Assembly (NCBI GenBank): GCA_023974075.1 | Contig: JAMFTG010000264.1 | Span: 110,001 to 174,000, forward strand | DNA: 64,000 nt | Direction: 5' to 3' | From: Chaenocephalus aceratus | Lineage: Eukaryota > Chordata > Actinopteri > Perciformes > Channichthyidae | Part shown: in pieces, positions 34,379-60,837 of the stretch | Numbering within the stretch: position 1 is the first letter of the stretch | How the letters are laid out: the number at the start of each line of letters is the position of its first letter | Program-made: the position numbers and the translations under genes | Notes under the pieces: model-generated | The model's database searches: none | Seen by the model: only the letters and a program-made list of their open reading frames with translations | What the model was told of the DNA's origin: nothing

Positions 34379-34386
34379 ATGTAAGG
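34379..34386 (+). other. Left junction core ATGTAAGG (attL-like)
   Basis: The satellite flank GGAGGA is on the left and the element left end CAAATGTCAGCC on the right of the shared 8-mer. Confidence 0.8.
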
Positions 34387-34848
34387 CAAATGTCAGCCTT
34401 AGAGACGGAGGTACCGTGGAACTTGCCCTTCAGATGTACGCATGTCCGCTCAATGGAAATGCGATGTCAACCTCCGATGTCAAGTACCTGTCAGCGACTG
34501 GACCGACTATGGGTGCCGATGGGCGGACGATAAAGCACCGCAAAATACACCCCCTTCAAGTGTTGCCAGGGGCACGAGAATACCCTCCATGGAGGGTGGG
34601 TGCTGCTGCTGTGAAAGAGGCCGACTATGGGTGCCGATGAGCGGACGATAAAGAACCACAAAATACACCTCTTTTCTGACTCACCAGGGGCATTAAGTTC
34701 TGGAGGGTGTGAACATCTGGGTTTAGTCCGTTGGGGAGTGCTTAATTCCGGGGTTCGGGGGTCTCATGTTATGGAAGTATGGATGATTCTCGAAAAACGG
34801 CTAAGTGCCAACGGGGGAGGGTGAAAGTCCTGTATACCCTGAGTAATC
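34387..34848 (+). repeat. Left-end domain of unit A
   Basis: This ~460-bp segment recurs at the start of unit B (44,368). It contains about two founder-like copies of the 119-bp repeat (GACTATGGGTGCCGATGGGC), a single copy of the phrase leading to the 231-bp array, and the hybrid motif GGATGATTCTCGAAAAACGG shared with the satellite core. Confidence 0.75.
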
Positions 34849-36590
34849 TTCCCCGGCTTTCAGACACTTATTCCTGGGTAACAAAGTCACCCTGCTCGGG
34901 TCGTCAAATGTGAATGAAATGGACGGATTCCTGTACATTTCAATCACTTTTGATGGGAGTCGTGAGGTGTGTTTGAAAGGGCCATATCTTCCTTAAATTC
35001 ACATCAATCATACCCAGCTTTCACACACTAATTGCTGGGTAATAAAGCCATGTGTACCCTGCATTTAAAGTAATCTTACCCAGCTTTCAGACACTAATTC
35101 CTGGGTAACAAAGTCACCCTGGACCGGTCATCAAATGTGATTGAAATGGACAGATTCCTGTACATTTCATGCATTTTTAATGGGAGTCATCAGGTGTGGA
35201 TGAAATGGCCATATCTTGCTTAAATTCACATCAAACTTACCCAGCTGTCACACACTAATTACTGGGTAATAGAGCCATGTGTACCCTGCATTTAAAGTAA
35301 TCTTACCCAGCTTTCAGACACTAATTCCTGGGTAACAAAGTCACCCTGGACCGGTCATCAAATGTGATTGAAATGGACAGATTCCTGTACATTTCATGCA
35401 TTTTTAATGGGAGTCATCAGGTGTGGATGAAATGGCCATATCTTGCTTAAATTCACATCAAACTTACCCAGCTTTCACACACTAATTGCTGGGTAATAGA
35501 GCCATGTGTACCCTGCATTTAAAGTAATCTTACCCAGCTTTCAGACACTAATTCCTGGGTAACAAAGTCACCCTGGACCGGTCATCAAATGTGATTGAAA
35601 TGGACAGATTCCTGTACATTTCATGCATTTTTAATGGGAGTCATCATGTGTGGATGAAATGGCCATATCTTGCTTAAATTCACATCAAACTTACCCAGCT
35701 TTCACACACTAATTGCTGGGTAATAGAGCCATGTGTACCCTGCATTTAAAGTAATCTTACCCAGCTTTCAGACACTAATTCCTGGGTAACAAAGTCACCC
35801 TGGACCGGTCATCAAATGTGATTGAAATGGACAGATTCCTGTACATTTCATGCATTTTTAATGGGAGTCATCAGGTGTGGATGAAATGGCCATATCTTGC
35901 TTAAATTCACATCAAACTTACCCAGCTGTCACACACTAATTGCTGGGTAATAGAGCCATGTGTACCCTGCATTTAAAGTAATCTTACCCAGCTTTCAGAC
36001 ACTAATTCCTGGGTAACAAAGTCACCCTGGACCGGTCATCAAATGTGATTGAAATGGACAGATTCCTGTACATTTCATGCATTTTTAATGGGGTCGTCGA
36101 ATGTGGATGAAATGGCCAGATTCCTGTACATTTCATGCATTTTTAATGGGAGTCATCAGGTGTGGATGAAATGGCCATATCTTGCTTAAATTCACATCAA
36201 ACTTACCCAGCTTTCACACACTAATTGCTGGGTAATAGAGCCATGTGTACCCTGCATTTAAAGTAATCTTACCCAGCTTTCAGACACTAATTCCTGGGTA
36301 ACAAAGTCACCCTGGACCGGTCATCAAATGTGATTGAAATGGACAGATTCCTGTACATTTCATGCATTTTTAATGGGGTCGTCGAATGTGGATGAAATGG
36401 ACATATTCCTGTACATTTCATGCATTTTTAATGGACATATTCCTGTACATTTCATGCATTTTTAATGTGGTCGTCGAATGTGATTGAAATGGACAGATTC
36501 CTGTACATTTCATGCATTTTTAATGGGGTCATCGAATGTGATTGAAATGGACAGATTCCTGTACATTTCATGCATTTTTAATGGGAGTCG
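34849..36590 (+). repeat. 227-bp tandem array with two 33-bp dyads per unit
   Basis: TTACCCAGCTTTCAG recurs at 35,076, 35,303, 35,530, 35,757 and 35,984, a 227-bp period. Each unit has two dyads, TTACCC-N21-GGGTAA, plus AAATGGACAGATTCCTGTAC and CATTTCATGCATTTTTAATG. The array degenerates into short repeats of the latter phrases at 36,360-36,590. Confidence 0.9.
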
Positions 36591-37114
36591 TCAGTATATG
36601 GAGCTTAACCCATAATTCCCGGAGGTTCCAGGCCGAATTTGGAAGCTCATAGGCGGCCTGCCATGCGTCCCCACCCGTGGAAAGCAAAAAAAAGTAAAGA
36701 AAACGGTCAATTATATCTTAAAATAATCAAAAATGAGGTTTTAAAAAATTCTCGAAAAACCGGCGAAGTGCCAACGGGGGAGGGGGTCAAGTCTTCGGCG
36801 CTTCGGGACGAAGCCCCGGAGACTTTTCCACTCCCCCGTTGCAATTTACAACGGAGAGGGGAAACCAGAGCTCCCCTCCTCCGTCCAAAAAATTCATTCA
36901 TCTTTTCCAAGCTACCATCTGCACGAAATCGGAAACCCGGTTTTTGAGAGCACTTAGAAAAAAACGAGCTATTTTCACATGATGGGGAAATCATGGAGGA
37001 ATGTATCCGCCTCAGGAGCACTTTGGATCGGATGAAATTGTTGCCAAGAGGACCCCCAATCCTGGTTCTCACAAAACTTTAAGTTTTCAAACTGGTGTCT
37101 GGAGGAATGCAAGG
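36591..37114 (+). repeat. Element-borne copy of the satellite core (unit A)
   Basis: Homologous to the satellite core but clearly diverged: ATGCAAGG (37,107-37,114) replaces ATGTAAGG, and the first hairpin is GCTTCG-GGA-CGAAGC (36,800-36,814) in place of GCTTCC-GGC-GGAAGC, a paired change. The upstream third of the satellite core is absent. Confidence 0.85.
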
Positions 37115-37619
37115 GGAGTTGTCAGGGGACTCTACCCGCCTCAAGGGGCACTATTTTGGGATACATTTTATCCATTTTCACCCTTTTTTATGGTTCTTCC
37201 AAAAAGTTAACTTATACTTTTTCTGACTCTGGAGGAAGGTAGGGGAGTTGTCAGGGGACTCTACCCGCCTTATGGAACACTATTTTGGGATACATTTTAT
37301 CCATTTTCACCCTTTTCTATGGTTCTTCCAAAAAGTTAACTTATACTTTTTCTGACTCTGGAGGAAGGTAGGGGAGTTGTCAGGGGACTCTACCCGCCTT
37401 ATGGAACCCTATTTTCGGATACAATTTATCCATTTTCACCCTTTTCTATGGTTCTTCCAAAAAGTTAACTTATACTTTTTCTGACTCTGGAGGAAGGTAG
37501 GGGAGTTGTCAGGGGACTCTACCCGCCTTATGGAACACTATTTTCGGATACAATTTATCCATTTTCACCCTTTTCTATGGTTCTTCCAAAAAGTTAACTT
37601 ATACTTTTTCTGACTCTGG
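37115..37619 (+). repeat. 129-bp tandem array (unit A)
   Basis: CTCTGGAGGAAGGTAGGGGA starts at 37,227, 37,356 and 37,485, with the next CTCTGG at 37,614: exact 129-bp spacing. It is a diverged relative of the ~128-bp satellite subrepeat. Confidence 0.9.
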
Positions 37620-38333
37620 CCAGCAGATGAAAACACCCGCCTCTCCACCCCTTCCGAGGGACGAGGGAACCGTGCGGGGGTCTGCTGGAGGCTACTGCCG
37701 GGTGCTCCGTCCTGCGCCTCACCGGGACCCTGACTCCAGCGCGGTTGTGGCGGCCTCGCCCTGGCCGTCCACCCTCTGGGTACCTGACTCCCCTGCCTCC
37801 TCCGGGAGCAGGTGAGAGGGGTTCAATGCCTCCCCGGAGGATGCTGTTACCCCGGCAACCCGCCAGCAGATGGAAACACCCGCCTCTCCACCTCTTCCGA
37901 GGGAACCGCGCGGGGGTCTGCTGGAGGCTACTGCCGGGTGGTCCGTCCTGCGCCTCACCGGGACCCTGACTCCAGCGCGGTGTGGCGGCCTCGCCCTGGC
38001 CGTCCACCGTGCGCCCTCTGGGTACCTGACTCCCCTGACTCCCCTGCCTCCTCCGGGAGCAGGTGAGAGGGGTTCAATGCCTCCCCGGAGGATGCTGTTA
38101 CCCCGGCAACCCGCCAGCAGATGGAAACACCCGCCTCTCCACCTCTTCCGAGGGAACCGCGCGGGGGTCTGCTGGAGGCTACTGCCGGGTGCTCCGTCCT
38201 GCGCCTCACCGGGACCCTGACTCCAGCGCGGTGTGGCGGCCTCGCCCTGGCCGTCCACCGTGCGCCCTCTGGGTACCTGACTCCCCTGACTCCCCTGCCT
38301 CCTCCGGGAGCAGGTGAGAGGGGTTCAATGCCT
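37620..38333 (+). repeat. GC-rich ~243-251-bp tandem array, 3 copies (unit A)
   Basis: CCAGCAGATG starts near 37,620, 37,863 and 38,114. The sequence is GC- and CpG-rich, unlike its surroundings, and each unit holds GGGAGCAGGTGAGAG, which looks like a 5' splice site. The array lies directly upstream of the recombinase gene, where a promoter would be expected. Long open frames on both strands arise because 243 is a multiple of 3. Confidence 0.9.
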
Positions 38334-38613
38334 CCGTCCCCCTGGGGGACGGATCGCCCGGAGGGTACTGTTATCCCCACGTTGTCGTACCCGAAACTGT
38401 CGGGTATCCTTTGGGAGAACCAGACTCTGGAGGAACGTGAGGGGAGATTACAGGGATCTCTGACCGCTTAACGAGTGCCTAAATGGGACACCGGACCATG
38501 ATGCAAATGAAAACAAACACCGGTTTGAAAATAAGCTGAGTGCATCTTTCGTGAGTCTTTTCACGCTTCCTTCTTTTTTACCCACGATTCTGGTGACATT
38601 TCCCGGTACCGAA
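38334..38613 (+). promoter_or_regulatory. Upstream region of the recombinase gene with two hairpins
   Basis: A perfect inverted repeat CCGTCCCC-CTG-GGGGACGG lies near 38,334-38,353, and TACCCGA-AACTG-TCGGGTA at 38,388-38,406. The second is preserved in unit B; the first is damaged there. A satellite-like CTCTGGAGGAACGTGAGGGG follows near 38,424. The promoter role is inferred from position only. Confidence 0.4.
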
Positions 38614-40988
38614 ATGCTCAAGAATACAGGTCGGATGGCGGTCCGTTGTCCGATCTGTAATAGTTCCTACCGTGCCCTGAGCAAGCACCTGCAGAGGCGC
38701 CATGGTGTGCGTAACTTGGTTGAAAGAAAAATTCTGCTGTTGTTGGCCAACGGACGGACCAACATTAGGCTCCATCCCTGTACCATTCTGGGATGCGAGT
38801 ACCGGGGCACAAGGCTGGATCGCCACTTGGCCAGAGACCATGTTGAGCTGGCCCGGGAGGAACTACATGTGGTTTGAAATAAACTGAAAATGACAGTGGC
38901 CAAGAAGGAGCTTTATGAACTCCGAATGACAAACCCCACCATAGAAATGATTACCGCTTGGGCTGTTGACACGGTGGCAGACGACGATATACTGTCACAA
39001 CCTCCACCCTTGTCCCCGGTGAATGAATGTGACAACCCGGACTGCAAAGAATGGAGGCTGGAGGCAAACGCAGTGAGGGCTCAGCGGGACATATATGCTG
39101 CTGAGGTGAAATCCCTGCGCTGCAAGTTGCAGCAGAGGATAAAGCACAAGCGACAGAGGATGGATCAGCGGGCCGGGGACATGCCCGCGTTCGATGGGGA
39201 GGAACGAGAGCGGGTCATTCTGAAGAAACGACCCCGAACAGAGTCGACACCAACGAGGCTGTCCAAGTCGAAAGGTCCCTCCTGCAGCAAGTCTCCCATT
39301 CCCGCCTGCAGCGAGTCCCCCACTGGCTCTCACACACATTCATCCAGCTCCTCAGAGCCTGCATCCATGCATACCGAGGCCTCGTCAACCTCCCCTCCCA
39401 TCCATTCCCCCTGGTTCCGGGGCAGGGGCCGGGGAAATATAATGCGGGACATCACATTCCCACGGGTCATGGGTAAGTGTGTTGGCTATGTGACACATGC
39501 AGTTTCTGTAACACACGATGTGTTGTCATTAACGTACTGTTTATATTTCACAGAGGAGTATCTTCAAGGATACCGGGAGCATTATGCAGGTATCGACCCA
39601 CCAGTGAGGCTCCAGGAAAACACAGTTTCCAAACTGAGCAGAGTGAAGTCGTTCCTAAGTTTCATGGCTCACGGGTTCAATCGCCTGTCTGACTGGCTCT
39701 TTTTGAGGGATCTCAAGAGGATACGCGGGTGGTCCAGGAGCCTGATGAAGTCAAGCCTTCAGGTCACGACCTCCGACTTCTACATCAAGAATATATCACA
39801 CTTTCTCAAGTACATGGCCGACACACCGTGCAAGGGGAGCAGGCTCAGCCAAACCGACATGATTTTAATCAAACGGGAAGTAGTTGCAATATTGAAGTCC
39901 CTGAAGAGACAAGTACTTGTTCACCAGATGCAAGTGAAGCGTGACAAGATGGAAGGTCTGCCGAGCCACAACGACCTAATGACATGCTTGACTTCGACCA
40001 CCACTCGCATCCCTCAGCTCCTGGATGTGATGGCCAGCAATCCGACTACCGCAACCCGGACCCTGCTCTATGGCTATATGACTCTTCATTGGAGCTGCAT
40101 TTACGGCCATCGTCCGGGGGTCTACTCCAACATGACCAACGACAAGGTCCGAAAGGCGGATACAACTGGCACTGCCTTCGGCTACCTGGTTCATGTGAGT
40201 GCTATTAATCAATGCATTTATTCTGGCAGTTATATGCATGATTGACATTGTATTGACACTCTCTAACTCTGTCATAACAGGTAAGCAACCACAAGACGGC
40301 CAACGCGTTCGGGGAAGCGCAGCTGTACCTCACCGTAGAAGAATTTGGATGGATGAAGAGGTGGCTGGAAATCAAGGGTACGCTGACCTGCACCCAGAGC
40401 CGTTACTTTCTATACACAGAGGGGAAGAACCCGTTCAGGAAGCTTGCATACTCCCTGAGGTTGGCCTGGGCTGATGTGGGGCTCCACGGTCCCATTAACT
40501 TCACCGACCTCCGCACAGTCCACGCCGATAATGCGAAGAGGTTTCAAGACAAAGGCAACCGCCAAAGAGTTAGTGATTTCATGTGTCACAACACTGCAAC
40601 TGCGGACAAATTTTACGCGAATAATCCTTCTTTGAAGGAGGCTGCGGACATTCGGTTACTCTTCACAGAGTCACTGCAAGCAGCGGCGGCGGCATCGACA
40701 GCAGTAGCAGCGGGAAATGAAGACACTTTTGCGGGTATTGACATCGACAGTGACATCTCTGGAGAGGAGCACAGCCCGGCTCCCTACCAAGACTCCCTAC
40801 CAAGACATGTCAACGCTTGGCGAGCGACGAGGGACCAGTCACTGGCCGAACACAGCCCCTCAGACATGGGTGAAGAGAGGGTGCCATACTCTGCCCCAAC
40901 TTCACCCACTTTTGCCAGTGATCAACTTGTAAATATGCAGTGTGTTGTTGTAATCAGTCCCCTTGTAAATACTTTATATCCTGTGTGA
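38614..40988 (+). CDS. Two-zinc-finger tyrosine recombinase, three exons, one in-frame TGA (unit A)
   Basis: Exons are 38,614-39,472, 39,554-40,194 and 40,281-40,988, 735 codons in all. Residues 12-30 form a C2H2 finger (C-x2-C-x9-H-x4-H) and residues 56-76 a second one (C-x4-C-x9-H-x4-H). Codon 88 is TGA; the unit B copy has CAA (Gln) there. A basic, coiled-coil-like linker and a Ser/Pro-rich stretch lead to a helical region typical of recombinase core-binding domains (VMEEYLQGYREHYAG, KSFLSFMAHGFNRLSDWLFL). The catalytic domain has IYGHRPGVYSNMT (Arg473), HKTANAFGEAQLYLT (Lys505), FTDLRTVHADNAKR (Arg578, Thr in the usual His position) and MCHNTATADKFYA (His603, Tyr612). That is a complete R-K-R-H-Y set with normal H-to-Y spacing. 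The tail is acidic with an Ala run. It probably cuts and rejoins DNA at the ATGTAAGG sites. It resembles Crypton-type YR proteins in plan; the exact family is not established. The frame upstream extends to an ATG at 38,551, but 38,614 is the start closest to the finger. Confidence 0.8.
39473..39553 (+). other. Intron 1 of the recombinase gene (81 bp)
   Basis: Donor G|GTAAGTGTG and acceptor TTATATTTCACAG|AGG. The intron has a length divisible by three and no stop, so the unspliced frame also stays open; splicing gives the more family-like RVMEEYLQGY. Both sites are kept in unit B. Confidence 0.75.
40195..40280 (+). other. Intron 2 of the recombinase gene (86 bp)
   Basis: Donor CAT|GTGAGTGC and acceptor CTGTCATAACAG|GTAAGC. 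Removal is required to join GYLVH to VSNHKTANAFG, which carries the catalytic lysine. The same sites are kept in unit B. Confidence 0.85.
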
Positions 40989-41017
40989 ATGTATTTATTA
41001 CTGTCAATATTACTGTA

Positions 41018-41023
41018 AATAAA
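41018..41023 (+). promoter_or_regulatory. Polyadenylation signal AATAAA of the recombinase gene
   Basis: AATAAA lies 30 bp after the stop codon and is followed by a T/G-containing stretch. It is identical in unit B at 50,954-50,959. Confidence 0.75.
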
Positions 41024-41220
41024 GTTTGTTAAAATTACTAAGTCTTCTGTTTTTAAAGCCCACTATGGGTTTTTTTCCTTTAAGATCTCCAGGGGCACGA
41101 TATCCTGGTTCTGGTGGTAGCATGGAGGTGTTTAGTCCAAGTGAGGAGTGCTCAAGTGTGGATGATTTGTAAGGTAGAAGAGGATAAAAAAAGTTAAAGT
41201 GTGAACCTCCAGCAGGGCAG
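41024..41220 (+). other. Spacer between recombinase gene and 119-bp array
   Basis: Non-coding; it contains AGATCTCCAGGGGCACGATA, a phrase related to the 119-bp repeat (CCAGGGGCACGAGA). It recurs in unit B at 50,960-51,160. Confidence 0.6.
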
Positions 41221-42366
41221 GTGGTGCTGTCAAGAAGGCCGACTATGGGTGCCGATGGGCGGACGGTAAAGCACCGCAAAGTAGACCCCCTTTAAGTGTT
41301 GCCAGGGGCACGAGAAAAATCCTCCACTGAAGGGTGGGTGTGCTGCTGTCAAGAAGGCCGACTATGGGTGCCGATGGGCGGACGGTAAAGCACCGCAAAG
41401 TAGACCCCCTTTAAGTGTTGCCAGGGGCACGAGAAAAATCCTCCACTGAAGGGTGGGTGGTGCTGCTGTCAAGAAGGCCGACTATGGGTGCCGATGGGCG
41501 GACGGTATAAAGCACCGCAAAGTAGACCCCCTTTAAGTGTTGCAGGGGCACGAGAAAAATCCTCCATGGAGGTTGGGTGCTGCTGCTGTCCAGAAGGCCG
41601 ACTATGGGTGCCGATGGGCGGACGGTAAAGCACCGCAAAGTTGACCTCCTTAAGTGTTGCCAGGGGCACGAGAAAAATCCTCCATGGAGGTTGGGTGCTG
41701 CTGCTGTCAAGAAGGCCGACTATGGGTGCCGATGGGCGGACGGTAAAGCACGCAAAGTTGACCTCCTTTAAGTGTTGCCAGGGGCACGAGAAAAATCCTC
41801 CATGGAGGTGGGGTGCTGCTGCTGTCAAGAAGGCCGACTATGGGTGCCGATGGGCGGACGGTAAAGCACCGCAAAGTAGACCTCCTTTAAGTGTTGCCAG
41901 GGGCACGAGAAAAATCCTCCATGGAGGTTGGGTGCTGCTGCTGTCAAGAAGGCCGACTATGGGTGCCGATGGGCGGACGGTAAAGCACCGCAAAGTAGAC
42001 CCCCTTTAAGTGTTGCCAGGGGCACGAGAAAAATCCTCCAAGGAGGTTGGGTGCTGCTGCTGTCAAGAAGGCCGACTATGGGTGCCGATGGGCGGACGGT
42101 AAAGCACCGCAAAGTAGACCCCCTTTAAGTGTTGCCAGGGGCACGAGAAAAATCCTCCATGGAGGTTGGGTGCTGCTGCTGTCAAGAAGGCCGACTATGG
42201 GTGCCGATGGGCGGACGGTAAAGCACCGCAAAGTAGACCCCCTTTAAGTGTTGCCAGGGGCACGAGAAAAATCCTCCATGGAGGTTGGGTGCTGCTGCTG
42301 TCAAGAAGGCCGACTATGGGTGCCGATGGGCGGACGGTAAAGCACCGCAAAGTAGACCCCCCTTTA
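41221..42366 (+). repeat. 119-bp tandem array, about 9.6 copies (unit A)
   Basis: AAGAAGGCCGACTATGGGTG recurs every 119-120 bp. Each unit holds GGGCGGACGGTAAAGCACCG and AAGTGTTGCCAGGGGCACGA. Most units carry the 12-bp palindrome CCTCCATGGAGG; the first units have CCTCCACTGAAGGG variants. No plausible protein. Confidence 0.92.
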
Positions 42367-42575
42367 AGATTCCCAGGGGCACGAGATTCTTGAGGGTGTG
42401 ATCATCTTGGTTTAGTCCGTGGGGGAGTGCTTAAGTTTGGGGGCCCGGGGACCCAAGGTGTGCGAGGTTCTGGAAGTACGCATGTCAGGGAGAGATCCTG
42501 GAGCTCCTTAGTCCGTGTTTTGGGGGTCTTGGAGCGGCCACAGAGAGGTGCTTTTCCCCGGGGTATTTCATGGAA
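42367..42575 (+). repeat. Single copy of the 231-bp-type repeat (unit A)
   Basis: TGTCAGGGAGAGATCCTGGA and GTCTTGGAGCGGCCACAGAG occur once here. In unit B the same segment is expanded into about 4.4 copies. Confidence 0.8.
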
Positions 42576-43394
42576 GTCAAATGTGGATGAAATGGACAGA
42601 GTCCTGTACATTTCATGCATTTCTAATGGGGTGTCGTCGAATGTGATTGAAATGGACAGATTCCTGTACATTTCAATCACTTTTAATGGGAGTCATCAGG
42701 TGTGGATGAAATGGCCATATCTTCCTTAAATTCACATCAAACTTACCCAGCTTTCACACACTAATTCATGGGTAATGAAGCCATGTGTACCCAGTATTTA
42801 AAGTAATCTTACCCAGCTTTCAGACACTTATTCCTGGGTAACAAAGTCACCCTGCTCGGGTCGTCAAATGTGAATGAAATGTACAGATTCCTGTACATTT
42901 CAATCACTTTTGATGGGAGTCGTGAGGTGTGTTTGAAAGGGCCATATCTCCCTTAAATTCACAGAAAACTTACCCATCTTTCACACACTAATTGCTAGGT
43001 AATACAGCCATGTGTACCTGTGTTTAAAGTAATCTTCCCCGACTTTCAGACACTTATTCCTGGGTAACAAAGTCACCCTGCTCGGGTCGTCAAATGTGAA
43101 TGAAATGTACAGATTCCTGTACATTTCAATCACTTTTGATGGGAGTCGTGAGGTGTGTTTGAAAGGGCCATATGTCCCTTAAATTCACAGCAAACTTACC
43201 CATCTTTCACACACTAATTGCTGGGTAATACAGCCATGTGTACCCTGTGTTTAAAGTAATCTTCCCCGACTTTCAGACACTTATTCCTGGGTAACAAAGT
43301 CACCCTGCTCGGGTCGTCAAATGTGAATGAAATGGACAGATTCCTGTACATTTCAATCACTTTTAATGGGAGTCGTGAGGTGTGGATGAAATGG
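42576..43394 (+). repeat. Dyad-bearing tandem array near the right end (unit A)
   Basis: Repeats of ~215-230 bp alternate TTACCC-N21-GGGTAA (CCCAG/CTGGG stem) with TTCCCCGACTTTCAG...CTGGGTAA forms, interspersed with AAATGTACAGATTCCTGTAC. It is related to the 34.85-36.59 kb array. Confidence 0.85.
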
Positions 43395-43577
43395 CCTGTT
43401 TAATCCGATTTAGAGCACTCTTTTCCCCGCATAAACTAGTCACCGTTAAACACTTATTTTGTTGATGTCTATATAACCGACTTCCCGCTATGCATTGCGG
43501 TCGGGTATATGGACCCTGACACTAGGCAGACCGCGGCCGGTAGTAAATGTCCAACCATTGTACCCTCTGGTCCCTAG
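43395..43577 (+). repeat. Right-end sequence, internal degenerate copy
   Basis: It contains CATAAACTAGTCACCGTTAA, the hairpin ATAACCGAC...GTCGG (one arm base changed here, GTCGGGTAT) and ACCGCGGCCGGTAGTAAATG, ending GGTCCCTAGGGTAT. Instead of ATGTAAGG it is fused to GGATGATTCTCG, an internal left-end sequence. Confidence 0.8.
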
Positions 43578-44171
43578 GGTATATGGATGATTCTCGAAAA
43601 ACGGCTAAGTGCCAACGGGGGAGGGTGAAAGTCCTGTATACCCTGAGTAATCTTCCCCGACTTTCAGACACTTATTCCTGGGTAACAAAGTCACCCTGCT
43701 CGGGTCGTCAAACTGTGGATGAAATGTACAGATTCCTGTACATTTCAATCACTTTTGATGGGAGTCGTGAGGTGTGGATGAAATGGCCATATCTTCCTTA
43801 AATTCACATCAAACTTACCCAGCTTTCACACACTAATTCATGGGTAATACAGCCATGTGCACCCTGTATTTAAAGTAAACTTACCCAGCTTTCAGACACT
43901 AAATCCGGGGTAATAAAGCCGTGTACATCTCCCTGTTTGAAAGGGCCATATGTCCCTTAAATTCACAGCAAACTTACCCATCTTTCACACACTAATTGCT
44001 GGGTAATGCAGCCATGTGTACCCTGTGTTTAAAGTAATCTTCCCCGACTTTCAGACACTTATTCCTGGGTAACAAAGTCACCCTGCTCGGGTCGTCAAAT
44101 GTGGATGAAATGTACAGATTCCTGTACATTTCATCACTTTTGATGGGAGTCGTGAGGTGTGGATGAAATGG
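43578..44171 (+). repeat. Internally deleted partial unit between two right ends
   Basis: It starts with GGATGATTCTCGAAAAACGG (equivalent to 34,777 in the left end), continues with dyad repeats, and leads to a full right end. The recombinase gene and most arrays are missing. Confidence 0.75.
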
Positions 44172-44359
44172 CCTGTTTAATAATCCGATTTAGAGCACTC
44201 TTTTCCCCGCATAAACTAGTCACCGTTAAACACTATTTTATTGATGTCTATATAACCGACTTCCCGCTATGCATTGCGGTCGGTTATATGGACCCTGGCA
44301 CTAGGCAGACCGCGGCCGGTAGTAAATGTCCAACCATTGTACCCTCTGGTCCCTAGAGT
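44172..44359 (+). repeat. Right-end domain of unit A
   Basis: It carries the hairpin ATATAACCGAC...GTCGGTTATAT (about 44,251-44,288), then GACCGCGGCCGGTAGTAAAT, and ends GGTCCCTAGAGT before ATGTAAGG. The same ending occurs at 56,881. Confidence 0.8.
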
Positions 44360-44367
44360 ATGTAAGG
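44360..44367 (+). other. Unit-unit junction core ATGTAAGG (attP-like)
   Basis: The right end CCTAGAGT is on the left and the left end AAAATGTCAGCC on the right. This is the arrangement a circularised element would have, here lying between two tandem units. Confidence 0.8.
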
Positions 44368-44831
44368 AAAATGTCAGCCTTAGAGACGGAGGTACCGTGG
44401 AACTTGCCCTTCAGATGTTACGCATGTCCGCTCAATGGAAATGCGATGTCAACCTCCGATGTCAAGTACCTGTCATCGACTGGACCGACTATGGGGGTGC
44501 CGATGGGCGGACGATAAAGCACCGCAAAATACACCCCCTTCAAGTGTTGCCAGGGGCACGAGAATACCCTCCATGGAGGGTGGGTGCTGCTGCTGTGAAA
44601 GAGGCCGACTATGGGTGCCGATGAGCGGACGATAAAGAACCGCAAAATACACCTCTTTTCTGACTCCCCAGGGGCATTAAGTTCTGGAGGGTGTGAACAT
44701 CTGGGTTTAGTCCGTTGGGGAGTGCTTAATTCCGGGGTTCGGGGGTCTCATGTTATGGAAGTATGGATGATTCTCGAAAAACGGCTAAGTGCCAACGGGG
44801 GAGGGTGAAAGTCCTGTATACCCTGAGTAAT
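44368..44831 (+). repeat. Left-end domain of unit B
   Basis: Nearly identical to 34,387-34,848 (AAATGTCAGCCTTAGAGACG onward), differing by a few single-base changes and indels. Confidence 0.8.
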
Positions 44832-45231
44832 CTTCCCCGGCTTTCAGACACTAATTCCTGGGTAACAAAGTCACACTGGACCGGTCATCAAATGTGATTG
44901 AAATGGACAGATTCCTGTACATTTCATGCATTTTTAATGGGGTCGTCGAATGTGGATGAAATGTACAGATTCCTGTACATTTCATGCATTTTTAATGGGA
45001 GTCATCAGGTGTGGATGAAATGGCCATATCTTGCTTAAATTCACATCAAACTTACCCAGCTTTCACACACTAATTGCTGGGTAATAGAGCCATGTGTACC
45101 CTGCATTTAAAGTAATCTTCCCCAGCTTTCAGACACTAATTCCTGGGTAACAAAGTCACCCTGGACCGGTCATCAAATGTGATTGAAATGGACAGATTCC
45201 TGTACATTTCATGCATTTTTAATGGGAGTCG
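44832..45231 (+). repeat. Short dyad array (unit B)
   Basis: Only about 1.5 units of the 227-bp repeat are present, against about seven in unit A. Three dyads are visible. Confidence 0.85.
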
Positions 45232-45754
45232 TCAGTATATGGAGCTTAACCCATAATTCCCGGAGGTTCCAGGCCGAATTTGGAAGCTCATAGGCGGCCT
45301 GCCATGCGTCCCCACCCGTGGAAAGCAAAAGAAAGTAAATAAAACGGTCAATTATATGTTAAAATAATCAAAAATGAAGTTTTTGAAAATTCTGGAAAAA
45401 CGGCTAAGTGCCAACGGGGGAGGGGGTCAAGTCTTCGGCGCTTCGGGACGAAGCCCCGGAGACTTTTCCACTCCCCCGTTGCAATTTACAACGGAGAGGG
45501 GAAACCAGAGCTCCCCTCCTCCGTCCAAAAAATTCATTCATCTTTTCCAAGCTACCATCTGCACGAAATCGGAAACCCGGTTTTTGAGAGCACTTAGAAA
45601 AAAACGAGCTATTTTCACATGATGGGGAAATCATGGAGGAATGTATCCGCCTCAGGAGCACTTTGGATCGGATGAAATTGTTGCCAAGAGGACCCCCAAT
45701 CCTGGTTCTCACAAAACTTTAAGTTTTCAAACTGGTGTCTGGAGGAATGCAAGG
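45232..45754 (+). repeat. Element-borne satellite core (unit B)
   Basis: Almost identical to 36,591-37,114, including ATGCAAGG at 45,747-45,754 and the GCTTCG-GGA-CGAAGC hairpin. Confidence 0.85.
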
Positions 45755-46122
45755 GGAGTTGTCAGGGGACTCTACCCGCCTCAAGGGGCACTATTCTGGG
45801 ATACATTTTATCCATTTTCACCCCTTTTTATGGTTCTTCCAAAAAGTTAACTTAGACTTTTTCTGACTCTGGAGGAAGGTAGGGGAGTTGTCAGGGGACT
45901 CTACCCGCCTTATGGAACACTATTTCGGATACATTTTATCCATTTTCACCCTTTTCTATGGTTCTTCCAAAAAGTTAACTTGTACTTTTTCTGACTCTGG
46001 AGGAAGGTAGGGGAGTTGTCAGGGACTCTACCCGCCTTATGGAACACTATTTTGGGATACATTTTATCCATTTTCACCCTTTTCTATGGTTCTTCCAAAA
46101 AGTTAACTGACTCTGACTCTGG
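45755..46122 (+). repeat. 129-bp tandem array (unit B)
   Basis: Roughly three copies of the CTCTGGAGGAAGGTAGGGGA repeat, with small deletions relative to unit A. Confidence 0.88.
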
Positions 46123-48250
46123 CCAGCAGATGAAAACACCCGCCTCTCCACCCCTTCCGAGGACGAGGGAACCGTGCGGGGTCTGCTGGAGGCCACTGCC
46201 GGGTGCTCCGTCCTGCGCCTCACCGGGACCCTGACTCCAGCGCGGTGTGGCGGCCCTGGCCGTCCCCCGTGCGCCCTCGGTACCTGACTCCCTGCCTCCT
46301 CCGGGGGCAGGTGAGAGTGGTTCGATGCCTCCCGGAGGATACTGTTCCCCCGGCAACCCGCCAGCAGATGAAAACACCCGCCTCTCCACCCCTTCCGAGG
46401 GACGAGGGAACCGTGCGGGGGTCTGCTGGAGGCCACTGCCGGGTGCTCCGTCCTGCGCCTCACCGGGACCCTGACTCCAGCGCGGTGTGGCGGCCCTGGC
46501 CGTCCCCCGTGCGCCCTCTGGGTACCTGACTCCCCTGCCTCCTCCGGGGGCAGGTGAGAGTGGTTCGATGCCTCCCCGGAGGATACTGTTCCCCGGCAAC
46601 CCGCCAGCAGATGATGAAAACACCCGCCTCTCCACCCCTTCCGAGGGACGAGGGAACCGTGCGGGGGTCTGCTGGAGGCCACTGCCGGGTGCTCCGTCCT
46701 GCGCCTCACCGGGACCCTGACCCCGCGGTGTGGCGGCCCTGGCCGTCCCCCGTGCGCCCTCTGGGTACCTGACTCCCCTGCCTCCTCCGGGGGCAGGTGA
46801 GAGTGGTTCGATGCCTCCCCGGAGGATACTGTTCCCCCGGCAACCCGCCAGCAGATGAAAACACCCGCCTCTCCACCCCTTCCGAGGGACGAGGGAACCG
46901 TGCGGGGGTCTGCTGGAGGCCACTGCCGGGTGCTCCGTCCTGCGCCTCACCGGGACCCTGACTCCAGCGCGGTGTGGCGGCCCTGGCCGTCCCCCGTGCG
47001 CCCTCTGGGTACCTGACTCCCCTGCCTCCTCCGGGGCAGGTGAGAGTGGTTCGATGCCTCCCCGGAGGATACTGTTCCCCCGGCAACCCGCCAGCAGATG
47101 AAAACACCCGCCTCTCCACCCCTTCCGAGGGACGAGGGAACCGTGCGGGGGTCTGCTGGAGGCCACTGCCGGGTGCTCCGTCCTGCGCCTCCCGGGACCC
47201 TGACTCCAGCGCGGTGTGGCGGCCCTGGCCGTCCCCCGTGCGCCCTCTGGGTACCTGACTCCCCTGCCTCCTCCGGGGGCAGGTGAGAGTGGTTCGATGC
47301 CTCCCCGGAGGATACTGTTCCCCGGCAACCCGCCAGCAGATGAAAACACCCGCCTCTCCACCCCTTCCGAGGGACGAGGGAACCGTGCGGGGGGTCTGTG
47401 GAGGCCACTGCCGGGTGCTCCGTCCTGCGCCTCACCGGGACCCTGACTCCAGCGCGGTGTGGCGGCCCTGGCCGTCCCTCGTGCGCCCTCTGGGTACCTG
47501 ACTCCCCTGCCTCCTCCGGGGGCAGGTGAGAGTGGTTCGATGCCTCCCCGGAGGATACTGTTCCCCCGGCAACCCGCCAGCAGATGAAAACACCCGCCTC
47601 TCCACCCCTTCCGAGGGACGAGGGAACCGTGCGGGGGTCTGCTGGAGGCCACTGCCGGGTGCTCCGTCCTGCGCCTCACCGGGACCCTGACTCCAGCGCG
47701 GTGTGGCGGCCCTGGCCGTCCCCCGTGCGCCCTCTGGGTACCTGACTCCCCTGCCTCCTCCGGGGGCAGGTGAGAGTGGTTCGATGCCTCCCCGGAGGAT
47801 ACTGTTCCCCCGGCAACCCGCCAGCAGATGAAAACACCCGCCTCTCCACCCCTTCCGAGGGACGAGGGAAACCGTGCGGGGGTCTGCTGGAGGCCACTGC
47901 CGGGTGCTCCGTCCTGCGCCTCACCGGGACCCTGACTCCAGCGCGGTGTGGCGCCCTGGCCGTCCCCCTTGCGCCCTCTGGGTACCTGACTCCCCTGCCT
48001 CCTCCGGGGGCAGGTGAGAGTGGTTCGATGCCTCCCCGGAGGATACTGTTCCCCCGGCAACCCGCCAGCAGATGAAAACACCGCCTCTCCACCCCTTCCG
48101 AGGGACGAGGGAACCGTGCGGGGGTCTGCTGGAGGCCACTGCCGGGTGCTCCGTCCTGCGCCTCACCGGGACCCTGACTCCAGCTATGTGTGGCGGCCTC
48201 GCCCTGGCCGTCCACCCTCTGGGTACCTGACTCCCCCGGGGGCAGATGAG
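46123..48250 (+). repeat. GC-rich ~243-bp tandem array, 9 copies (unit B)
   Basis: CCAGCAGATG starts at 46,123, 46,361, 46,604, 46,848, 47,091, 47,333, 47,577, 47,821 and 48,065. Single-base length differences between units break and restore frames. A minus-strand open frame of 665 codons across it is a repeat artefact. The position upstream of the gene matches unit A. Confidence 0.93.
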
Positions 48251-48541
48251 AGGGGTTCAATGCCTCCCCTGGGGGACGGAACGCCCGGAGGGTACTGCTA
48301 TCCCCACGTTGTCGTACCCGAAACTGTCGGGTATCCTTTGGGAGAACCAGACTCTGGAGGAACGTGAGGGGAGATTACAGGGATCTCTGCCCGCCTAACG
48401 AGTGCCTAAATGGGACACCGCACAATGATGCAAATGAAAACAAACACCGATTTGAAAATAAGCTGAGTGCATCTTTCGTGAGTCTTTTCACGCTTCCTTC
48501 TTTTTTTACCCACGATTCTGGTGACATTTCCCGGTACCGAA
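48251..48541 (+). promoter_or_regulatory. Upstream region of the unit B recombinase gene
   Basis: It keeps the TACCCGA...TCGGGTA hairpin; the CCGTCCCC hairpin is damaged. Regulatory role inferred from position only. Confidence 0.35.
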
Positions 48542-50924: not shown

Positions 50925-51164
50925 ATGTATTTATTACTGTCAATATTACTGTAAATAAAGTTTGTTAAAATTACTAAGTCTTCTGTTTTTAAAGCCCACT
51001 ATGGGTTTATTTCCTTCAAGATCTCCAGGGGCACGATATTCTGGTTCTGGTGGTAGCATGGAGGTGTTTAGTCCGAGTGAGGAGTGCTCAAGTGTGGGAT
51101 GATTTGTAAGGTAGAAGAGGGTAAAAAAAGTTAAAGTGTGAACCTCCAGCAGGGCAGGTGGTGC
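50925..51164 (+). other. 3' flank of unit B recombinase gene
   Basis: It contains AATAAA (50,954-50,959) and the spacer also present in unit A. Confidence 0.6.
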
Positions 51165-52905
51165 TGTGAAGAAGGCCGACTATGGGTGCCGATGGGCGGA
51201 CGGTAAAGCACCGCAAAGTAGACCCCCTTTAAGTGTTGCCAGGGGCACAAGAAAAATCCTCCACTGGAGGGTGGGTGGTGCTGCTGTCAAGAAGGCCGAC
51301 TATGTGTGCCGATGGGCGGACGGCAAAGCACCGCAAAGTAGACCCCCTTTAAGTGTTGCCAGGGGCACAAGAAAAATCCTCCACTGGAGGGTGGGTGGTG
51401 CTGCTGTCAAGAAGGCCGACTATGTGTGCCGATGGGCGGACGGCAAAGCACCGCAAAGTAGACCCCCTTTAAGTGTTGCCAGGGGCACAAGAAAAATCCT
51501 CCACTGGAGGGTGGGTGGTGCTGCTGTCAAGAAGGCCGACTATGTGTGCCGATGGGCGGACGGCAAAGCACCGCAAAGTAGACCCCCTTAAGTGTTGCCA
51601 GGGGCACAAGAAAAATCCTCCACTGGAGGGTGGGTGGTGCTGCTGTCAAGAAGGCCGACTATGTGTGCCGATGGGCGGACGGCAAAGCACCGCAAAGTAG
51701 ACCCCCTTTAAGTGTTGCCAGGGGCACAAGAAAAATCCTCCACTGGAGGGTGGGTGGTGCTGCTGTCAAGAAGGCCGACTATGTGTGCGATGGGCGGACG
51801 GCAAAGCACCGCAAAGTAGACCCCCTTTAAGTGTTGCCAGGGGCACGAGAAAAATCCTCCACTGGAGGGTGGGTGGTGCTGCTGTCAAGAAGGCCGACTA
51901 TGGGTGCCGATGGGCGGACGGCAAAGCACCGCAAAGTAGACCCCCTTTAAGTGTTGCCAGGGGCACAAGAAAAATCCTCCACTGGAGGGTGGGTGTGCTG
52001 CTGTCAAGAAGGCCGACTATGTGTGCCGATGGGCGGACGGCAAAGCACCGCAAAGTAGACCCCCTTTAAGTGTTTGCCAGGGGCACGAGAAAATCCTCCA
52101 TGGAGGTTGGGTGCTGCTGCTGTCAAGAAGGCCGACTATGTGTGCCGATGGGTGGACGGCAAAGCACCGCAAAGTAGACCCCCTTTAAGTGTGCCAGGGG
52201 CACGAGAAAAATCCTCCACTGAAGGGTGGGTGGTGCTGCTGTCAAGAAGGCCGACTATGTGTGCCGATGGCCGGACGGCAAAGCACCGCAAAGTAGACCC
52301 CCTTTAAGTGTTGCCAGGGGCACGAGAAAAATCCTCCATGGAGGTTGGGTGCTGCTGCTGTCAAGAAGGCCGACTATGTGTGCCGATGGGTGGACGGCAA
52401 GCACCGCAAAGTAGACCCCCTTTAAGTGTTGCCAGGGGCACGAGAAAAATCCTCCATGGAGGTGGGTGGCTGCTGCTGTCAAGAAGGCCGACTATGTGTG
52501 CCGATGGGTGGACGGCAAAGCACCGCAAAGTAGACCCCCTTTAAGTGTTGCCAGGGGCACGAGAAAAATCCTCCATGGAGGTTGGGTGCTGCTGCTGTCA
52601 AGAAGGCCGACTATGTGTGCCGATGGGTGGACGGTAAAGCACCGCAAAGTAGACCCCCTTTAAGTGTTGCCAGGGGCACGAGAAAAATCCTCCATGGAGG
52701 TTGGGTGCTGCTGCTGTCAGAAGGCCGACTATGTGTGCCGATGGGTGGACGGTAATAAGCACCGCAAAGTAGACCCCCTTTAAGTGTTGCCAGGGGCACG
52801 AGAAAAAATCCTCCATGGAGGTTGGGTGCTGCTGCTGTCAAGAAGGCCGACTATGGGTGCCGATGGGCGGACGGTAAAGCACCGCAAAGTAGACCCCCTT
52901 TAAGA
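51165..52905 (+). repeat. 119/120-bp tandem array, about 14-15 copies (unit B)
   Basis: The first half has exact 120-bp units (CCTCCACTGGAGGGTGGGTG type); the second half has 119-bp units with CCTCCATGGAGG. Subtypes are thus arranged in blocks, as expected from local unequal exchange. Confidence 0.93.
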
Positions 52906-54060
52906 TTCCCAGGGGCACGAGATTCTTGAGGGTGTGATCATCTTGGTTTAGTCCGTGGGGGAGTGCTTAAGTTCGGGGGCCCGGGGACCCAAGATGTGCG
53001 AGGTTCTGGAAGTACGCATGTCAGGGAGAGATCCTGGAGCTCCTTAGTCCGTGTTTTGGGGGTCTTGGAGCGGCCACAGAGAGGTCCTTTTCCCCGGGTA
53101 TTTCATGGAAGTCTGAAATAACCTGTTTGCTCATGTCAGGGAGAGATGCTGGGGCTGCTGCGTCCGTGTTTTGGGGGTCTTGGAGCGGCCCCGAAGAGGT
53201 GGCTTTGTCGGTGTATGTAATGGAAGTGTGAACTAGCCTGTTTGCTCAAGGCAGGGAGGGATCCTGGAGCTCATTAGTCCGTGTTTTGGGGGTCTTGGAG
53301 CGGCCACAGAGAGGTTCCTTTTCCCCGGGGTATTTCATGGAAGTCTGAAATAACCTGTTTGCTCATGTCAGGGAGAGATGCTGGGGCTGCTGCGTCCGTG
53401 TTTTGGGGTCTTGGAGCGGCCCCGAAGAGGTGGCTTTGTCGGTGTATGTAATGGAAGTGTGAACTAGCCTGTTTGCTCAAGGCAGGGAGGGATCCTGGAG
53501 CTCCTTAGTCCGTGTTTTGGGGGTCTTGGAGCGGCCACAGAGAGGTCCTTTTCCCCGGGGTATTTCATGGAAGTCTGAATAACCTGTTTGCCTCATGTCA
53601 GGGAGAGATGCTGGGGCTGCTGCGTCCGTGTTTTGGGGGTCTTGGAGCGGCCCCGAAGAGGTGGCTTTGTCGGTGTATGTAATGGAAGTGTGAACTAGCC
53701 TGTTTGCTCAAGGCAGGGAGGGATCCTGGAGCTCCTTAGTCCGTGTTTTGGGGGTCTTGGAGCGGCCACAGAGAGGTCCTTTTCCCCGGGGTATTTCATG
53801 GAAGTCTGAAATAACCTGTTTGCTCATGTCAGGGAGAGATGCTGGGGCTGCTGCGTCCGTGTTTTGGGGGTCTTGGAGCGGCCCCGAAGAGGTGGCTTTG
53901 TCGGTGTATGTAATGGAAGTGTGAACTAGCCTGTTTGCTCAAGGCAGGGAGGGATCCTGGAGCTCCTTATTCCGTGTTTTGGGGTCTTGGAGCGGCCACA
54001 GAGAGGTGCTTTTCAAGCTCGGTCTCCTTGCAGTGTGAAATAAACAGAGTGCTCGTGTCC
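52906..54060 (+). repeat. 231-bp tandem array, about 4.4 copies (unit B)
   Basis: ATCCTGGAGC starts at 53,031, 53,261, 53,492, 53,723 and 53,954. Each 231-bp unit is itself a dimer of two ~115-bp halves, both holding GTTTTGGGGGTCTTGGAGCG. Confidence 0.92.
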
Positions 54061-54645
54061 GATCGTGCTACTAATTGATAACTTTTAATAGGAATGTCTG
54101 TTTGACATGTGTTCAGAAAGTGCTATTTATTCAGAAATAGCAGTTTCTGACAATCAGGCACTTAGGGGCTGCAGTAACACTTTACCCGCCTTTTAAACAC
54201 CTTTTGCTGGGTAAATAATCAATGTATTTCCGCCTGCTTCCATCAGCACCCGCCAGTCATTTCAAACGGTTTCAATCGTTTTTTTCACTTTTAAAAACAG
54301 CTTTCTGCCCTGTAAATGATTTCTAATCATTATTACCGTCATGGAGGAGCTGCAGGGACACTTTACCCGCCTTTTAAACACCTTTTCATGGGTAAACAAT
54401 CAATGTATTTCCGCCTGCTTTCCATCAGCACCCGCCAGTCATTTCAAACGGTTTCAAATCGTTTTTTTCACTTTTAAAACAGCTTTCCTGCCCTGTAAAT
54501 GATTTCTAATCATTATTACCGTCATGGAGGAGCTGCAGGGACACTTTACCCGCCTTTTAAACACCTTTTCATGGGTAAACAATCAATGGTATTTCCGCCT
54601 GCTTTCCATCAGCACCCGCCAGTCATTTCAAACGGTTTCAAATCG
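54061..54645 (+). repeat. ~182-bp tandem array with TTTACCC...GGGTAAA dyads
   Basis: TTACCCGCCTTTTAAACACC starts at 54,182, 54,363 and 54,545. Each unit keeps the dyad with 21-base spacing (54,182-54,214 for the first) although the spacer sequence differs from the other arrays. Confidence 0.9.
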
Positions 54646-56735
54646 TTCTTGAAAGGGCCATATCTCCCTTAAATTCCCATCAAAGTTACCCAGCTTTCAC
54701 ACACTAATTAATGGGTAATACAGCCATGTGTACCCTGTGTTTAAAGTAATCTTCCCCGACTTTCAGACACTAAATCCGGGGTAATAAAGCCGTGTACATC
54801 TCCCTGTTTGAAAGGGCCATATCTCCCTTAAATTCACAGCAAACGTACCCATCTTTCACACACTAATTGCTGGGTAATACAGCCATGTGTACCCTGTGTT
54901 TAAAGTAATCTCCCCGACTTTCAGACACTAAATCCGTGGTAATAAAGCCGTGTACATCTCCCTGTTTGAAATGGCATATCTCCCTTAAATTCCCATCAAA
55001 GTTACCCAGCTTTCACACACTAATGCTGGGTAATACAGCCATGTGTACCCTGTGTTTAAAGTAATCTTCCCGACTTTCAGACACTAAATCCGTGGTAATA
55101 AAGCCGTGTACATCTCCCTGTTTGAAATGGCCATATCTCCCTTAAATTCCCATCAAAGTTTACCCAGCTTTCACACACTAATTGCTGGGTATACAGCCAT
55201 GTGTACCCTGTGTTTAAAGTAATCTTCCCCGACTTTCAGACACTAAATCCGTGGTAATAAAGCCGTGTACATCTCCCTGTTTGAAATGGCCATATCTCCC
55301 TTAAATTCCCATCAAAAGTTACCCAGCTTTCACACACTAATTAATGGGTAATACAGCCATGTGTACCCTGTGTTTAAAGTAATCTTCCCCGACTTTCAGA
55401 CACTAAATCCGGGGTAATAAAGCCGTGTACATCTCCCTGTTTGAAATGGCCATATCTCCCTTAAATTCACAGCAAACGTACCCAGCTTTCACACACTAAT
55501 TAATGGGTAATACAGCCATGTGTACCCTGTGTTTAAAGTAATCTTCCCCGACTTTCAGACACTAAATCCGTGGTAATAAAGCCGTGTACATCTCCCTGTT
55601 TGAAATGGCCATATCTCCCTTAAATTCCCATCAAAGTTACCCAGCTTTCACACACTAATTGCTGGTAATACAGCCATGTGTACCCTGTGTTTAAAGTAAT
55701 CTTCCCCGACTTTCAGACACTAAATCCGTGGTAATACAGCCGTGTACATCTCCCTGTTTGAAATGGCCATATCTCCCTAAATTCCCATCAAAGTTACCCA
55801 GCTTTCACACACTAATTAATGGGTAATACAGCCATGTGTACCCTGTGTTTAAAGTAATCTTCCCCGACTTTCAGACACTAAATCCGGGGTAATAAAGCCG
55901 TGTACATCTCCCTGTTTGAAATGGCCATATCTCCCTTAAATTCACAGCAAACGTACCCAGCTTTCACACACTAATTAATGGGTAATACAGCCATGTGTAC
56001 CCTGTGTTAAAGTAATCTTCCCCGACTTTCAGACACTAAATCCGGGGTAATAAAGCCGTGGTACATCTCCCTGTTTGAAATGGCCATATCTCCCTTAAAT
56101 TCACAGCAAACGTACCCAGCTTTCACACACTAATTAATGGGTAATACAGCCATGTGTACCCTGTGTTTTAAAGTAATCTTCCCCGACTTTCAGACACTAA
56201 ATCCGGGGTAATAAAGCCGTGTACATCTCCCTGTTTGAAATGGCCATATCTCCCTTAAATTCACAGCAAACGTACCCAGCTTTCACACACTAATTGCTGG
56301 GTAATACAGCCATGTGTACCCTGTGTTTAAAGTAATCTTCCCCGACTTTCAGACACTAAATCCGGGGTAATAAAGCCGTGTACATCTCCCTGTTTGAAAT
56401 GGCCATATCTCCCTTAAATTCACAGCAAACGTACCCAGCTTTCACACACTAATTGCTGGGTAATACAGCCATGTGTACCCTGTGTTTAAAGTAATCTTCC
56501 CCGACTTTCAGACACTTATTCCTGGGTAACAAAGTCACCCTGCTCGGGTCGTCAAATGTGGATGAAATGTACAGATTCCTGTACATTTCAATCACTTTGA
56601 TGGGAGTCGTGAGGTGTGGATGAAATGGCCATATCTCCCTTAAATTCCCATCAAAGTTACCCAGCTTTCACACACTAATTAATGGGTAATACAGCCATGT
56701 GTACCCTGTGTTTTAAGTAATCTTCCCCGACTTTC
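54646..56735 (+). repeat. ~157-bp tandem array, about 13 copies, two dyads each
   Basis: TATCTCCCTTAAATTCCCAT recurs every ~157 bp. Each unit has one dyad of the TTACCCA...TGGGTAA type and one of the TTCCCCG...CGGGGTAA type. Confidence 0.92.
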
Positions 56736-56881
56736 AGACACTAAATAAACACTTATTTTGTTGATGTCTATATAACCGACTTCCCGCTATGCATTGCGGT
56801 CGGTTATTTGGACCCTGGCACTAGGCAAGACCGCGGCCGGTAAGTAAATGTCCAACCATTGTACCCTCTTGTCCCTAGAGT
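56736..56881 (+). repeat. Right-end domain of unit B
   Basis: It matches 44,220-44,359: TGATGTCTATATAACCGAC, the GTCGGTTAT hairpin arm and ACCGCGGCCGGTAAGTAAAT, ending GTCCCTAGAGT. Confidence 0.85.
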
Positions 56882-56889
56882 ATGTAAGG
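56882..56889 (+). other. Right junction core ATGTAAGG (attR-like)
   Basis: The element right end CCTAGAGT is on the left and the satellite flank GGAGTTTGGGGAGACTC on the right. Confidence 0.8.
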
Positions 56890-57683
56890 GGAGTTTGGGG
56901 AGACTCTACCCGCATATGAGGCACTATTTCGGATACTTTTTTTCCATTTTCACCCCTTTTCTATGGTTCTTCCAAAAGTGAACTTTGACTTTTTCTGAGT
57001 CTGGAGGAATGTGAGGGGAGTTTGGGGAGACTCTACCCGCATATGAGGCACTATTTTCGGATACATTTTTTCCATTTTCACCCATTTTCTATGGTTCTTC
57101 CAAAAGTTTACTTTGACTTTTCTGAGTCTGGAGGAATGTGAGGGGACTTTGGGGAGACTCTACCCGCATATGAGGCACTATTTTCGGATACATTTTTTCC
57201 ATTTTCACCCCTTTCTATGGTTCTTCCAAAAGTTAACGTTGACTTTTTCTGACTCTGGAGGAATGTGAGGGGAGTTTGGGGAGACTCTACCCGCATATGA
57301 GGCACTATTTTGGGATACATTTTGTCCTTTTTCATGGTTCTCCCAAAGGTGAACTCAGACTTGTTCTGACTCTGGAGCAATGCAAGGAGAGTTGTCAGGG
57401 GACTCTACCTGCATTATGATGCACTATTTTGGGATGCAAGGAGAGTTGTCAGGGGACTATACCTGCATTATTATGCCCTATTTTGGGATACATTTTGCCC
57501 ATTTTCATGGTTCTCCCAAAGGTGAACTCAGACTTTTTCTGACTCTGGAGCAATACAAGGAGAGTTGTCAGGGGACTCTACCTGCATTATGATGCACTAT
57601 TTTGGGTTGCAAGGAGAGTTGTCAGGGGACTCTACCTGCATTATGATGCACTATTTTGGGATCCATTACAAAAATATATATCA
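56890..57683 (+). repeat. Satellite subrepeats, right half of the disrupted unit
   Basis: Four ~125-bp units are followed by 54-bp units, in register with the core ending at 34,386. Confidence 0.9.
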
Positions 57684-60499: not shown

Positions 60500-60836
60500 C
60501 ATTTTAACACTTTTTCAGTTTATGGAGCTTAGCCCACAATTCCCGGAGGTTCCAGGCTGAATTTGGGAGCTCATAGGCTGCCTGCTATGCGCCCCCACCC
60601 GTGGAAAGCAAAACAAAGTAAAGAAAACGGTCAATTATATCTTAAGATAATCAAAAATGAAGTTTTAAAAAAATTCTTCGCGCTTCCGGCGGAATCCCCG
60701 GACACTTTTCCACTCCTCCGTTGCATTTTACAACGGAGAGGGGAATTGAGACCTCCCTTCCTCCGTCGGAAAAATTCATTCATCTTTTCCAAGCTACCAT
60801 CTGCACAAATCGGAAAGCCGGTTTTTGAGAGTACTT
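60500..60836 (+). repeat. Satellite core copy 8, twice deleted, right edge of the satellite
   Basis: About 230 bp are missing between ACTTTTT and CAGTTTATGGAG, and about 50 bp between AAAAATTCT and TCGCGCTTCC. The core stops at GAGAGTACTTA, where a different minisatellite starts. Confidence 0.85.
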
Positions 60837-60837
60837 A

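Follow-up and report, generated by a model that had tools for sequence, protein, structure and literature searches.

The genome of the Antarctic icefish Chaenocephalus aceratus holds, in the stretch of 64,000 nucleotides analysed here (the window, C264:110001-174000 of an assembly of 1.06 Gb), a 22.5-kb insertion that very probably consists of two elements, inserted separately, from a young family of DNA transposons encoding a tyrosine recombinase (YR). To judge from its sequence, the element seems to work like a site-specific YR transposon and to be Crypton-like. The insertion is delimited by three junctions, and the 8-mer ATGTAAGG is read directly at 34379, 44360 and 56882, the positions given in a first-pass annotation of the window. 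The two elements and their junctions are as follows.

34382..44362, + strand: copy 1, YR transposon, TAAGGC...AGTATG, 9,981 bp, with predicted cut at G|T (delimited with the help of 38 paired insertions elsewhere and of contig C263)
44363..56884, + strand: copy 2, YR transposon of another subfamily, TAAGGA...AGTATG, 12,522 bp, with predicted cut at G|T
34379..34386, + strand: left junction (attL), target ATG and element TAAGG
44360..44367, + strand: middle junction, at which the right end of copy 1 abuts the left end of copy 2
56882..56889, + strand: right junction (attR), element ATG and target TAAGG

Within the window ATGTAAGG occurs 10 times against 2.48 expected, a count reached in 0 of 100 shuffles. 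When the outer flanks are joined by script, the product matches the satellite unit near 2894 exactly over 35 bp, and the earlier claim that excision restores a satellite unit is thereby borne out; the junctions and the precise insertion equally agree with the proposed geometry of attL, attP-like and attR sites. That two elements are stacked at one site is further supported by a contig with a single element (C263) and by the boundaries of the family elsewhere.

The family has many copies in the genome. A search for the exact right-end junction CTAGAGT-ATGTAAGG, which had been suggested as a check, gave 74 sites and 0 with the reversed pattern as control, and with two mismatches allowed at least 228 left ends and at least 399 right ends are present (controls 0). 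As AGT belonged to the first right-end search pattern, a second right-end search dispensed with it and counted 243 ends (control 1); among the 100 right ends listed, 17 are internal and nested, and of the other 83, 81 carry AGTATG or GGTATG. On the left, where 140 ends were counted (control 0), 99 of the 100 listed carry GTAAGG. Matching the 100 listed left ends with 78 right ends out of 100 listed yielded 57 left-right pairs with a range of 2.4-15.7 kb, 44 of them spanning 8-13 kb. At C39:820738-828651 six right ends follow each other about 1.2-2.3 kb apart and look like short right-end modules arranged in tandem. With respect to age, the best 40 of 313 candidates in a search with the last exon of the gene, the 40 that were scored, are all 99-100% identical to copy 1. 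The family is accordingly young, with older members, since over the left 560 bp most of the 30 listed copies have a near-identical relative and two are old, with the nearest relative at 87% and 71%.

What the two ends of an insertion have in common is a single base. In all 38 insertions with both junctions paired, which were chosen among ends closely matching the end patterns, the left junction reads [target]-G-TAAGG and the right junction CCCTAGAGTAT-G-[target], so that G is the only base common to both. The G at position 0 was set by the script and has been seen independently only at the satellite and the LINE (long interspersed nuclear element) targets; at these two the target supplies the G, as it presumably does at the other sites. 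The first-pass annotation had taken the whole 8-mer ATGTAAGG as shared core and had named copies in unrelated sequence with different 8-mers as the finding that would speak against it. Such copies exist, and the core claim has to be given up in favour of the G alone; the 8-bp identity in the window arises because the target there is by chance the same as the joined ends of the element.

The target itself has a recognizable structure. Over 35 unique sites, preferences in the left half are T at -8 (23 sites), A at -7 (19), A at -6 (22) and T at -1 (26), and in the right half T at +1 (31), A or T at +2 (34), A at +3 (32), G at +4 (30), G at +5 (19) and G at +6 (21); a set of 45 unique right flanks shows the right-half pattern again. 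C(C)TAA and TTAGG constitute inverted arms with six bases between them, and the target pattern CTAAnnnnTG-TWAGGG thus looks like inverted arms flanking a 6-bp spacer. The joined ends of the element, CCTAG-AGTATG-TAAGG, fit the same frame of arm, spacer and arm. YR sites are expected as inverted repeats 6-8 bp apart in the Crypton survey (PMC3212892). Occupied copies of a LINE target account for 4 of the first 30 left ends and for 8 of 64 terminal right flanks; two LINE copies in the window retain the site unoccupied.

31574..31601, + strand: unoccupied LINE target site
7748..7775, - strand: unoccupied LINE target site

As TTAGGG resembles the target arm, telomeric targets were also sought; a telomeric array was present in 0 of the 38 paired flanks.

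The spacer is inherited in a one-sided manner, with the family spacer kept at the right end and the spacer of the target kept at the left junction. The five bases before the G at the left junction equal those of the element in 1 of 35 cases, differ by one base in 5 and by at least two bases in 29. Random sorting of a heteroduplex spacer would lead to both spacer kinds at each end; the observed pattern may reflect exchange at a single edge or biased repair, and the data favour neither. Integron integrases act on a core site G|TTRRRY, which the cut point G|TWAGG resembles. It is possible, if doubtful, that the same YR family recombines in the manner of an integron, exchanging a single strand at G|T with replication resolving the product, rather than in two steps across a 6-bp overlap. 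Both junctions switch between target and element at the same edge, and the near-constant right-end spacer (81 of the 83 non-nested listed right ends) together with the divergent left spacers (29 of 35) is what such a process would leave; on the other hand, biased mismatch repair, or circles that always carry the right-end spacer, would look identical, and the one left spacer equal to that of the element and the five that differ by one base do not fit well.

Stacking as in the window recurs elsewhere. A left end directly follows the right end of another element in 7 of the first 30 left ends and in 42 of 100 listed left ends, the latter share being an overestimate because flanks that have T at one position were not covered by the search pattern. 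By rough arithmetic a genome of this size should contain about 1 million GTWAGG motifs, and element ends consequently look strongly preferred as targets. At stacked junctions at least three right-end variants are combined with both left-end variants, a mixture that local duplication alone would not produce.

For the pair in the window, the left 560 bp of copy 2 are 100% identical to the elements C6:22061k, C3:29821k and C3:29831k on other contigs and 97.67% identical to those of copy 1, which rank 25 of 32; the left 560 bp of copy 1 are 100% identical to the element of C263. This contig holds one element of 10,906 bp between flanks matching the window (2-kb flanks 98.8% and 99.8%, longer blocks 98.6-99.7%, with a 1-kb window stretch absent from C263) and is probably the other haplotype of the locus, although it may be a separate duplicated locus. 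Over the gene and at either end its element is like copy 1, while the tiles at 2.8, 4.0, 4.4 and 5.2 kb have copy 2 as the nearer relative, so that some exchange between copies has taken place. The identity of the left end of copy 2 with copies on other contigs, set against 97.7% with its neighbour, makes a second insertion most likely, and the simplest history is most likely one in which copy 1 came first and copy 2 was later inserted, on one haplotype, into the right junction of copy 1. Of the two routes first considered, sequential integration is thus favoured, and integration of a dimer circle is disfavoured because the copies differ at both ends and C263 holds a single element.

An origin of the pair by local tandem duplication, by unequal crossing-over within satellite DNA or through a dimer circle is quite improbable. 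The satellite context does favour unequal exchange, and the comparison of five neighbour pairs over the left 560 bp is mixed: the pair in the window (rank 25) and C3:28736k/28748k (rank 21) are clearly unlike, whereas C6:2404k/2416k and C3:38881k/38883k rank 3 of 32 and C3:29821k/29831k are identical. The latter three pairs are in favour of duplication, and on account of this mixed outcome duplication has gained slightly and confidence in two insertions has been lowered slightly. Duplication has nevertheless to account for a copy 2 whose left end is shared with other contigs and not with copy 1, for two copies that differ at both termini in a family whose stacked junctions mix end variants, and for a C263 element that matches copy 1 at both ends.

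An assembly artefact behind the 22.5-kb tandem is very improbable: the contig contains repeats and is represented by assembly sequence only, but many stacked junctions of the same form occur on other contigs and a sister contig carries one element. Finally, a DDE transposase that creates an 8-bp target-site duplication, with the YR gene as a passenger, can practically be dismissed (the first-pass annotation had noted that it would not simply explain the middle junction), for the outer 8-mers do match here, but the junctions elsewhere share one base and no random 8-mer in 38 of 38 paired insertions, TAAGG at the left and AGTATG or GGTATG at the right junction recur in nearly every case, and no DDE domain was found in the ten element stretches scanned.

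The recombinase gene can be followed in copy 1 in the following parts.

38464..38877, + strand: open reading frame (ORF) with a C2H2-like zinc finger of the recombinase gene, finger matches below cut-off, ending at an in-frame stop at which P0019, an icefish database protein, continues
38878..40245, + strand: middle part of the YR gene, Arg I codon at 40111, putative introns 39473-39553 and 40195-40280
40278..40988, + strand: C-terminal part of the YR gene, codons of Lys at 40293, Arg II at 40512, His III at 40587 and Tyr at 40614 (fold search on database protein P0011)
41018..41023, + strand: AATAAA, putative polyadenylation signal downstream of the YR gene, read in the sequence

Both putative introns are absent from the spliced database protein P0011. 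The catalytic residues of P0011, assigned by motif, are R197, K229, R302, H327 and Y336, and all five are also present in copy 1; the first histidine of the tetrad is a T, in FTDLR. The AlphaFold model of P0011 has a mean predicted local distance difference test score (pLDDT) of 63.7, better over the catalytic part, and a fold search matches it with moderate scores to XerA, XerH, Cre, Tn1549 and integron (2a3v) integrases, so that the predicted catalytic fold is that of a YR; no solved structure of relevance was retrieved by sequence search. Pfam analysis of six database proteins returned phage-integrase matches in three, below cut-off at best. The fold matches and the R-K-R-H-Y motifs uphold the identification as a YR element. 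The claim of a YR gene in each unit holds in so far as YR gene sequence is present in both copies, but in copy 2 the motifs lie in different frames. As a single in-frame stop separates finger and core in copy 1, and copy 2 is frame-shifted, a working enzyme from either window copy is only putative. Antarctic notothenioids supply the nearest proteins (Pseudochaenichthys georgianus, 94%; Gymnodraco, 77%), and relatives at 37-54% identity occur in Brachyistius, Melanotaenia, Misgurnus, Lates and one unnamed record.

Among known systems, the conjugative transposons Tn916/Tn1549 and CTnDOT integrate as circles with little homology between the sites and carry coupling sequences off their old targets. 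The icefish element resembles them in the catalytic fold, the Tn1549 integrase being among the fold matches, and in the scant homology between sites with presumed integration of a circle, and differs in that its family spacer is fixed rather than picked up from the flanks. With integron cassettes it has in common the G|T cut point beside an inverted arm and the stacking at the attachment site. Starship elements are marked by a DUF3435 captain gene; the search gave no captain-domain Pfam match, the host is not fungal and the relatives are fish proteins. A DIRS/Ngaro retrotransposon was rejected, as neither reverse transcriptase nor RNase H was found in the ten stretches scanned.

The likeness is greatest to Cryptons (CryptonF, S, A and I), described in the survey as YR-encoding DNA elements that lack terminal inverted repeats and for which excision as a circle is the proposed model (PMC3212892). 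A DNA transposon with YR and devoid of reverse transcriptase is what the ten scanned stretches contain, over a part of their ORFs. Fungal and stramenopile Cryptons have terminal direct repeats of 4-6 bp, and the survey reports none for animal Cryptons (PMC3212892); such 4-6 bp repeats are lacking in the icefish element, where the two junctions share just the G in all 38 pairs, within a site of arm, spacer and arm. It differs further in its size of mostly 8-13 kb and its long internal tandem repeats, and Pfam DUF3504, of CryptonA-type YRs, gave no match at E up to 1. CryptonV, compared by description only, is a YR transposon described from cnidarians, likewise with target specificity, some families residing in microsatellites (Kapitonov and Jurka 2012, as cited in PMC8869645). 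Endogenous nimaviruses, large viral genomes in crustaceans, are described as having telomere-specific YRs at TAACC/GGTTA repeats (PMC10871703); they resemble the icefish element in the combination of C2H2 zinc finger and YR and in a target similar to its arms, whereas the ten scanned stretches contain no viral gene and none of the 38 paired flanks is telomeric. In the open-licence literature, to which the search was confined, none of the listed titles or openings of abstracts described the icefish element; in its excerpt, the notothenioid text matching Crypton concerns DIRS1.

The surroundings of the insertion are related to the element itself.

855..6572, + strand: left satellite block, for the most part homologous to the interior of the element
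56886..60838, + strand: satellite on the right flank, likewise homologous for the most part to the interior of the element
36590..37619, + strand: copy 1 interior homologous to the flanking satellite, about 83-86% in long matches
45231..46108, + strand: the same satellite-like stretch in copy 2
43555..43583, + strand: nested second right-end-like sequence in copy 1, after which comes sequence from the left part of the element itself (the nested form of 17 of the 100 listed right ends)

Matches to the element interior cover 4,405 of 6,700 bases (66%) in the left and 3,561 of 4,436 bases (80%) in the right satellite block, compared with 0 of 24,602 window bases in the control. The flanks are thus satellite DNA, as had been noted, but not a satellite independent of the element. 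That older relatives of the element, with repeats that also carry the target motif, gave rise to the satellite is likelier than the alternative that the element took up satellite DNA. A GC-rich 243-bp tandem repeat is located at 46122-48236, upstream of the recombinase gene; its long minus-strand ORFs have no Pfam match and are probably spurious.

In the mechanism proposed, the element would leave as a circle with the joined ends CCCTAG-AGTATG-TAAGG as attachment site, which the C2H2-YR protein would pair with chromosomal CTAAnnnnTG-TWAGG-like sites; the CCCTAGAGTATGTAAGG site is the predicted substrate of the recombinase, and exchange would take place at G|T. Each insertion would rebuild half an attachment site at each end, and a whole site where the target reads TAAGG, and through this rebuilding resident ends would become good targets and give rise to head-to-tail stacks. 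Here, copy 1 would have entered a satellite ATGTAAGG and copy 2, later, the right junction of copy 1. Tentatively, a vertebrate YR transposon might even behave in an integron-like manner, with exchange at one edge (G|T), its own 6-bp spacer kept at the right end through every move, and resident ends as attachment sites for head-to-tail stacks of different members that seed satellite arrays for later insertions.

Elsewhere in the window, an intact olfactory-receptor-like ORF (Pfam 7tm_4) is located at 20494-21429 (-), a SCAN-domain ORF, probably retrotransposon-related, at 17003-17638 (-) and an ORF with DUF5641 (Pfam), a domain typical of BEL/Pao integrase tails, at 32049-32867 (+).

Site recognition and cutting by animal YR transposons have been hard to study because the animal Cryptons reported so far in the survey showed no terminal repeats (PMC3212892). 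With hundreds of ends and many near-identical copies, the icefish family makes the attachment site of an animal YR transposon readable, and the empty sites together with the probable polymorphism of one versus two elements make its integration testable in vitro. Furthermore, stacking would provide site-specific transposons with a route to tandem arrays that does not involve unequal crossing-over.

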